Origin: Micavibrio sp.
GTDB taxonomy: Bacteria > Pseudomonadota > Alphaproteobacteria > UBA9219
Length of the DNA stretch: 57,147 nucleotides
Assembly (NCBI GenBank): GCA_020718105.1
Contig: DYDA01000015.1
Coordinates: 1-57,147 of the forward strand
Reading direction: 5' to 3'
Below, piece after piece: positions 32,108 through 36,756 of this stretch. How positions within the stretch are numbered: position 1 is the first letter of the stretch; the number at the start of each line of letters is the position of its first letter. The translations under genes were made by a program, and so were the position numbers. Under the pieces are notes generated by a model that saw only the letters and a list, made by a program, of their open reading frames with translations, did not search any database and was not told where the DNA came from.

Positions 32108-33220
32108 ATGGCCAAGAACAAATCGCTCCTCAACGCTTTTCATGCCGCCGCCCTTGGCGTGACGCTTTTTGCAGCTTCCGTTTTTTCTGCCGGTCCTGCT
32201 GTGGCTTCTGAATCGATAGACGTTGGTGCCACACGCCAACAGCCCCCCATTACTGAGGAAACGCTGCCCACCTACAGCAATGTTCTGGATGATGGTAGGC
32301 TCAAAGCGGTGTCTTATGCTTCCTTAGCACCCCATCAGCCTCGTGTTGATGTTTTGACCGATAGAGCCAAGAATAAAACCGATGTCGTCATTACGGAGAC
32401 TCAACGCGAAAGGGCTCGCGTTTTCACAACGCTGGTGATCAGGGGAAAAGGCTATCCTTATTGTGTTGACATAGGGTTTGATGGCCGCGTCCTCCAAGCC
32501 GTGACGGGGCAAGGCGATTTGGATCGCTCAATCAGGCAGTTGGGTGAAAATCCGCCCGATCTTGACGCGATCAAGGCTCTTGTTGAAAAAACAAAGAGTG
32601 TTGCCAGCAAGGCCGTTCTTTCGTCCCGTGAGGGGCCTATGGAAACGGTATCGGCTCCCTTTGACCCCAGCCGTCCAGAAAATGATCTTCTTTTAAGTGG
32701 CATTAAGACAGAAGGCCGCGAAACGCAGGTTCGAGAAGTCGTTGATTACAACAGGGGGCGCCAGTTACGTAGCTCAACCGTTGTTGTCACAACACTTTTT
32801 AAGCATAAGGCGTTGCAAGATGGATTGCCCCTAACCATTACGATTAAAAATGGTCAGCCGCCCCTTAGCCCTACGGGTATTCTTGTAGAACAAATCGAGA
32901 CTGCTTTTAAAAAAGAGGGGCGAACAGTGGCCCCTAACATCAACTCTCGTGACTATTTGACTGTGTTGACCCACTGCGCCGAAGCGGCAGCCCGCGTGAT
33001 GACGGCTGATTTTGAATCCATTGCGTATCAAAAACCTATTGCAGCGCCTGTTTCTGCGGCAGCGTTTGTGCAGGACATGGACGCGCTTTTTGATCTTACG
33101 CAAGAAAGGATCGCCCAACCTGCCGTTAAGCCCGTAAAACAGCCGGAAAAACCCGCTGCGCCCCAAAAGAAAACGACGACAAACCCAAAGGTGGAGCAAG
33201 TCGCCCGCCTGACGCGCTGA
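32108..33220 (+). CDS. Secreted hypothetical protein
   Basis: A 370-residue protein with a signal peptide ending PAVAS (about residue 33). The mature part is unrecognised. Ordered segments include GKGYPYCVDIGFDGRVLQAV and PLTITIKNGQPPLSPTGILV. The C-terminal 40 residues are Lys/Pro/Ala/Gln-rich, like a periplasm-spanning or wall-interacting tail. AAAAGGA lies 9 bp upstream of the ATG. It is divergent from rph and precedes gyrB by 95 bp. Confidence 0.72.
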   Translation: MAKNKSLLNAFHAAALGVTLFAASVFSAGPAVASESIDVGATRQQPPITEETLPTYSNVLDDGRLKAVSYASLAPHQPRVDVLTDRAKNKTDVVITETQRERARVFTTLVIRGKGYPYCVDIGFDGRVLQAVTGQGDLDRSIRQLGENPPDLDAIKALVEKTKSVASKAVLSSREGPMETVSAPFDPSRPENDLLLSGIKTEGRETQVREVVDYNRGRQLRSSTVVVTTLFKHKALQDGLPLTITIKNGQPPLSPTGILVEQIETAFKKEGRTVAPNINSRDYLTVLTHCAEAAARVMTADFESIAYQKPIAAPVSAAAFVQDMDALFDLTQERIAQPAVKPVKQPEKPAAPQKKTTTNPKVEQVARLTR

Positions 33221-35806: not shown

Positions 35807-35825
35807 CTAAGGTTACGTATCGTTT

Positions 35826-35901
35826 AACTGGGGTGCCCTTTTAACGGGGGCTGAGATTATACCCATTGAACCTGATCTGGGTTATGCCAGCGAAGGGAGT
35901 T
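35826..35901 (+). promoter_or_regulatory. TPP riboswitch (THI element)
   Basis: The conserved core is complete: GGGGTGC, GGGGGCTGAGA, then ACCC...TTGAACCTGATCTGGGT, TATGCCAG and CGAAGGGA. AACT at the 5' end can pair with AGTT at the 3' end to form P1. GGGAG within the 3' part sits 5 bp before the ATG at 35905, so TPP binding may hide the ribosome-binding site. The downstream gene is not a recognised thiamine gene. Confidence 0.93.
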
Positions 35902-35904
35902 TCT

Positions 35905-36756
35905 ATGCTGAAAGCCGCCTCTTTACGGACGCGATCGTGTCCGTCTTTTTTCTCGTCTGGCGCATGCTCTTTGCCCTCCGCTGGCCGCCGCCTTTGCCTC
36001 ACGTTCTCCCATCTTCAGCGCATCGGCAAAGGGGCCACGACGGATGTCTGGTTTTCGGATGGATTCTCGCCCAACAAAGAACCGCCGTTGACTTGGGCGG
36101 CGGTGCGGCAGTTAGAATTGTTGCAAGAGGCAGGCAATTTGGCGATTGAGGATTTGGACGTTGCCGCCGCGCCCCGCGCCTTTCAATCCATGATGAAGAT
36201 GCGGGCGGGTGGGTATCGCATGACAATGATTATGATGGGCGACACCACGGAAGAACCAGAGCGCGATGATCTGGCCATCGTGGATCAAAAGCTGCAAGAA
36301 GAAATCGCGCAGCTTATCCACTTTTTGTATTTAAGCGAGATGAGCGAGCATGCCTGCGCTCTTAACGCCACAGCCCTTCACCAGCATGCTTGGTCCTGTG
36401 AGGAGGCTCTGCCGCATATCATCCAAACGCTTGGCGCCAAAAGCCTGTTTAAGCCAGAAAAAGAAACGCTGGCCGAAAAAACCTTTCTCGCGCTTTTGAA
36501 AAAACTTCCTGCCCATCATATCGTGCATGATACGGCAATAGGTCTTGTCTTGCCCGATGCCACAAAGGAAAAAAATTGGACGTATATTGCGGCGGGCGAA
36601 AACACCTTTGCCTCCTTTCAAACAGCGATGACAACCGTTTTGGGTGGGCTGGATAAAAACATGGCGACGATGCGTCATATGCGTGGCTATGGCGACCGCC
36701 TTGGCTCACATTTTAAGATAAGAGCTACATCGCCCGCGATACAGGCGCATCTTTAG
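35905..36756 (+). CDS. Unrecognised protein under the TPP riboswitch
   Basis: A 283-residue protein. Residues 1-40 are Ser/Arg/Cys-rich (LKAASLRTRSCPSFF) and look unlike the rest. From about LQRIGKGATTDVWFSDG on the sequence looks like an ordered, mostly helical cytosolic protein with RMTMIMMGDTTEEPERDD, IAQLIHFLYLSEMSEHAC and DKNMATMRHMRGYGDRLG. I do not recognise it as ThiC, TenA, a thiamine transporter or any Thi enzyme. The N-terminus may be the relic of an older riboswitch-controlled gene fused to a downstream one. Its end overlaps hemN by 32 bp (convergent). Confidence 0.65.
   Translation: MLKAASLRTRSCPSFFSSGACSLPSAGRRLCLTFSHLQRIGKGATTDVWFSDGFSPNKEPPLTWAAVRQLELLQEAGNLAIEDLDVAAAPRAFQSMMKMRAGGYRMTMIMMGDTTEEPERDDLAIVDQKLQEEIAQLIHFLYLSEMSEHACALNATALHQHAWSCEEALPHIIQTLGAKSLFKPEKETLAEKTFLALLKKLPAHHIVHDTAIGLVLPDATKEKNWTYIAAGENTFASFQTAMTTVLGGLDKNMATMRHMRGYGDRLGSHFKIRATSPAIQAHL

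Follow-up and report, generated by a model that had tools for sequence, protein, structure and literature searches.

A TPP riboswitch precedes an undescribed gene in Micavibrio-like bacteria, a strong candidate for vitamin B1 acquisition

In the window, by which we mean the whole stretch of 57,147 nucleotides of Micavibrio sp. DNA analysed here, a complete TPP riboswitch lies directly before a gene for a 283-residue protein and embeds the ribosome-binding site of that gene. The gene belongs to a new family of predicted cytosolic proteins. It has stayed with its riboswitch throughout a bacterial family in which none of the known routes to vitamin B1 that were tested was found, and it is therefore a strong candidate for a hitherto undescribed gene of vitamin B1 acquisition. 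The proposed function is drawn entirely from regulation and genome context, from which we infer both the link to thiamine and the biochemical activity. By linking a protein family of unknown function to one metabolite, the riboswitch makes the function of a "hypothetical protein" directly testable. The analysis also exposed a gap, as the Micavibrio-like family uses TPP enzymes and has none of the known TPP routes that were tested; if the protein fills this gap, it would represent a new way of obtaining vitamin B1. Most Micavibrio-like lineages have not been cultured, and there is general interest in what they acquire from other cells. No paper in the literature searched connects a TPP riboswitch with Micavibrio.

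The TPP riboswitch and the ribosome-binding site

The RF00059 covariance model matched positions 35819-35915 of the + strand, on which all window features described here lie. The match covered the whole model (positions 1-105) with 72.1 bits (E 2.7e-12; gathering score, 54.3 bits), the non-conserved 3′ end of the model extending beyond the ATG. The core elements CUGAGA, GAACCUGAUC and AGGGA and the helices are all present, in agreement with an earlier note on this DNA that had called the riboswitch core complete. No other TPP element was found in the genome assembly (1.91 Mb, 42 contigs, 96% complete). When the window copy was aligned with 22 related copies, giving 23 copies from ten genera, the aptamer core was found to be near-invariant, and compensatory changes that preserved pairing were observed at 7 of the 17 consensus pairs of the aptamer helices.

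The ribosome-binding site of the gene, AAGGGAG (35893-35899), is located inside the aptamer, and 5 nt separate its GGGAG (35895-35899) from the ATG at 35905. In the fold taken from the Rfam alignment, the G residues at 35895-35896 pair with 35871-35872, while G35899 pairs in the P1 helix, whose arms (35826-35828 and 35899-35901) close the aptamer on the ribosome-binding site. Because its G residues are engaged in the aptamer and in P1, the ligand-bound aptamer would physically mask the ribosome-binding site. The same arrangement recurs in the 23 copies, in which a GGGAG-type sequence is followed after about 3-9 nt by the start codon, an ATG or, in some copies, a TTG. The earlier proposal that GGGAG serves as the ribosome-binding site and that the link to the gene is direct was thus upheld. 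Burial of the ribosome-binding site in the aptamer core has been described for some riboswitches as the "direct" arrangement (Barrick and Breaker 2007, PMC2258182). The window shares with these direct translation-attenuation TPP riboswitches a complete aptamer and a ribosome-binding site in the aptamer core; it differs from them in that the controlled gene lies outside every known thiamine family.

There is good support for the riboswitch and for its overlap with the ribosome-binding site, and we consider it very probable that the gene is under TPP control, with TPP presumably acting as a repressor. When TPP is plentiful, the aptamer would close over its own GGGAG and translation would stop; when TPP is scarce, the ribosome-binding site would open and the protein would be made. 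Thermodynamic folding of the leader in silico, with and without the aptamer, was neutral on switching, because the ribosome-binding site was also paired in the free-state fold and no fold left it open.

The 283-residue protein and its linkage to the riboswitch

The ORF extends from 35905 to 36756, with a TAG stop at 36754-36756. Its conserved body (residues 25-276, 35977-36732) comprises an alpha+beta core up to about residue 215, followed by a poorly predicted C-terminal part, and is preceded by a variable N-terminal tail (residues 1-24, 35905-35976). Comparison with the nearest relative, which is 86% identical and has the same start, yielded a dN/dS of 0.13 for residues 25-283 and of about 0.86 for residues 2-24, the latter being based on few codons. 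For the body, the values against the next two relatives were 0.11 and 0.22. The protein body is under purifying selection, and this is a real, constrained gene. Among 20 aligned sequences, 30 columns are invariant, including G27, R28, Q38, R39, W64, A66, R68, N78, M99, R105, D121, D127, Q131, W163, H171, H208, H258 and Y262.

The earlier note had described the first 40 residues as foreign to the rest of the protein. The start does differ from that of the relatives, but the change point lies near residue 24 and not at 40-45. In the orthologue alignment, conservation begins at G27-R28, the first ~24 residues are absent from most relatives, and all orthologues carry tails of other forms or lengths. 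Since the body is constrained and the first ~24 residues are free to vary, the apparently foreign N-terminus is better read as a fast-changing tail. Hydropathy analysis of 27 orthologues revealed no evident transmembrane segment or signal peptide (best 19-residue mean, 1.19). The orthologue in G007, with 295 residues, is complete and compact. In two other orthologues (L018, 1411-2691, and L021, 1396-2643), a mid-protein insertion of about 80-100 residues matches the phage family phrog_8234, of unknown function.

A protein search detected the gene in 26 of 59 related genomes. The order was then represented in a profile search by 33 genomes, namely 24 of the window's family (f1), four of a neighbouring family (f3) and five of a thiC-bearing sister family (f2); carriers were 22 of the 24, all four and none of the five, respectively. 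In 385 sampled alphaproteobacterial genomes, matches were confined to the four f1/f3 members included, with none in the ~380 sampled alphaproteobacteria outside the order, and no relatives were found on plasmids or phages. A TPP riboswitch is located directly 5′ of the gene in all 22 f1 carriers, counting G009, whose element scores 53.2 bits, slightly below the gathering score, and in one f3 genome (G025). Every f1 orthologue therefore has both the riboswitch and a start codon behind it, which answers a check proposed in the earlier note, namely whether orthologues also follow a TPP riboswitch. The two f1 genomes without the gene, G014 (98% complete) and G008 (63% complete), are also without the riboswitch.

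The flanking genes change from genus to genus. The gene mostly stands by itself, and the gene that follows is often convergent to it; no operon partner is conserved throughout, the neighbours being mainly housekeeping genes. At six loci from several genera (L053, L054, L055, L066, L067 and L069), a cytidine/dCMP-deaminase-like gene is near or convergent to the gene. Elsewhere in the window, 5′ of gyrB, positions 32108-33220 (+) encode a 370-aa predicted exported protein with no significant Pfam or NCBIfam match.

Homologues without the riboswitch were also observed. In f3, G029 and G031 carry very divergent homologues lacking it, and the copy in G027 is cut off by the contig start, so that its upstream region cannot be judged. 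G012, in turn, carries two copies, of which the second lacks the riboswitch and is sister to the first, which has one. Because of these divergent f3 relatives and the second G012 copy, the link between the protein family and TPP control is not universal. That second copy (L106, on contig C43 of G012) has a near-identical fragment, L108, on contig C107 of G004 from the same metagenome, which may be due to cross-binning. A RecX-like gene adjoins the homologue in G029 and lies near the gene in G025 (L117, L119), suggesting that the two occupy the same locus and that the riboswitch was lost in G029.

Thiamine genes of the order and the proposed role

TPP-dependent enzyme domains were found in all 33 genomes of the order. 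Neither ThiC nor a ThiE-type TMP synthase above the cut-off was detected in the 23 f1 and f3 genomes searched for them, while both are present in all five f2 genomes. TPK, PnuC-type and ThiB-type proteins were detected in none of the 33 genomes, by searches that were positive in well-known control genomes. Across the same 33 genomes, ThiL exceeded the cut-off only in f2 and in none of the 28 f1 and f3 genomes, where the weaker matches had the lengths of PurL and of HypE/PurM-type proteins. The best ThiL-like match of the window genome was rejected as ThiL, since it is HypE, encoded beside HypD. As TPP enzymes are present and ThiC, ThiE, TPK and ThiL are missing, f1 and f3 would need TPP without synthesis or a known kinase; the known routes covered by the search were ThiC, ThiE, TPK, ThiL, PnuC and ThiB. 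By comparison, the gut auxotrophs that have been surveyed retain ThiL or ThiN (PMC6593275).

The earlier note recognised no thiamine enzyme or transporter in the product, and Pfam, NCBIfam and profile comparisons likewise gave no Thi family. No Pfam or NCBIfam model reached its cut-off for the 283-residue protein, weak matches varying between members, and we found no reliable PDB family match, no recognisable nucleotide-binding motif and no homology to anything thiamine-related. ThiL and TPK (ThiN) make TPP, a step that is missing in the gene-bearing lineage and that would have to be supplied by a salvage gene; the 283-residue protein differs from both in having no sequence similarity to them. 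Comparison of 27 orthologues with four ThiL sequences of the sister family by hhalign gave a probability of 0.03%, with no TIGR01379 match, and the TPK/ThiN model PF04263 was unmatched in 20 members. MnmC2/Methyltransf_30 was discarded as well (18.6 bits against a cut-off of 22, over 19 residues only and in 2 of 20 members). So was FolD: the lone PDB profile match was to Francisella FolD over 54 columns, E. coli FolD gave 2.0 bits and an hhalign probability of 0.7%, and the protein family had no folate dehydrogenase Pfam match.

Structure prediction with AlphaFold2 gave mean pLDDT values of 69 for the window protein (20 sequences) and 77 for an orthologue (27 sequences), with a well-predicted alpha+beta core and a poor C-terminal part. 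Searches of PDB structures and viral models returned a best VIA-align Z of 2.2 and no Foldseek match at E <= 0.001; because the models are only moderately confident, the lack of a fold match does not demonstrate a new fold. A ThiL-like fold, proposed by low-ranking Foldseek matches to HypE, ThiL and SelD (E 0.14-2, TM ~0.1), received no support from profile comparison.

PnuT, ThiBPQ, ThiT and ThiV are transporters typically encoded behind TPP riboswitches in auxotrophs (for a transporter list, see PMC6593275). They are membrane or periplasmic proteins, whereas in the 283-residue protein neither a membrane segment nor a signal peptide is evident. An acquisition or salvage role appears likely, because the lineage is without the synthesis genes and both known TPP-yielding kinases yet uses TPP enzymes. 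In a genome of this kind, the one gene that follows a TPP riboswitch is a natural candidate for providing TPP. On balance, we favour a part for the protein in obtaining or processing TPP or thiamine from outside. The conserved riboswitch linkage and the missing pathway genes thus lend support to one option of the earlier note, a new thiamine-related gene. A single cytosolic protein would be translated under a direct-type TPP riboswitch, and could be a soluble salvage protein, for example a kinase with no relation to ThiL or TPK, or a protein that works with an unidentified importer in binding or handling. A more specific proposal is a thiamine- or TPP-processing enzyme or a TPP-capturing protein unrelated to every known one, which might, for instance, stand in for TPK or ThiL without being homologous to them; the lineage that keeps it, perhaps predatory or host-associated, would live on vitamin B1 from other cells. 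We advance this proposal only tentatively.

TPP riboswitches in described genomes are mostly found on synthesis, salvage or transport genes. This argues against a gene that is controlled by TPP and serves a TPP-using or TPP-sparing process, for instance by regulating a TPP enzyme or acting together with it, and so does its position behind the sole TPP element of a genome in which no known route of TPP supply was found. Such a role would suit a cytosolic, soluble protein that resembles neither transporters nor kinases, and would also fit the riboswitch-free homologues in f3; we regard it as a possible, though rather doubtful, alternative to acquisition or salvage. A point against acquisition or salvage is that G014 has TPP enzymes but neither gene nor riboswitch.

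The sister family raises another explanation, in which the riboswitch is a relic left after thiC loss, with an unrelated gene now behind it and no meaningful TPP control today. In f2, a TPP riboswitch lies directly 5′ of thiC, and thiC is missing from the gene-bearing lineage. The likeness is that the same riboswitch class directly precedes both genes; the difference is that thiC encodes an enzyme of de novo synthesis, whereas the gene for the 283-residue protein has no relation to it and is confined to genomes in which no thiC was found. A relic would decay, however, and the core is near-invariant in 23 copies with compensatory changes in its helices; in addition, the riboswitch stays with the gene while the neighbours change, and it is missing from G014 together with the gene. 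A relic is therefore improbable. The least probable account is a fusion accident, also raised in the earlier note, in which a deletion brought a riboswitch-driven start together with a coding body of foreign origin. The different make-up of the first ~24 residues, poorly shared with relatives, would agree with it. The same layout is nevertheless conserved in the 22 f1 genomes and one f3 genome, and the nearest relative shares both the start and the high identity. According to that note, orthologues lacking both the first 40 residues and the riboswitch would point to such an accident; the f1 orthologues all keep the riboswitch, each with its own N-terminal tail. Because the layout is conserved in 22 genomes, we consider the fusion accident refuted. 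Acquisition or salvage of TPP or thiamine thus remains the reading that we prefer.

Hairpins in the coding start

In the coding start of the window gene, a hairpin, ACGGACGC-gatc-GTGTCCGT (35925-35944), is followed by CTTTTTT and is terminator-like in the window genome. An intrinsic terminator at 35925-35951 was rejected as the expression platform: the hairpin is common in orthologues, and the T run behind it is missing in most of them. Transcription attenuation is accordingly not favoured, because of the mostly missing T run. A perfect short hairpin (stem of at least 6, loop of 3-5) within codons 3-20 was observed in 12 of 23 orthologues, compared with a chance level of 3.0 ± 1.6 from dinucleotide shuffles (at most 8 in any of 300); windows further downstream in the coding sequences of these genes gave an expectation of 1.5. 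The coding-start hairpin possibly belongs to the expression platform, and it could be the reason why the N-terminal codons can vary in protein sequence. The hairpins are GC-rich and about four times as frequent as chance, and their sequences differ between orthologues, as seen for example in L006, L011, L013, L014, L016, L017 and L092.
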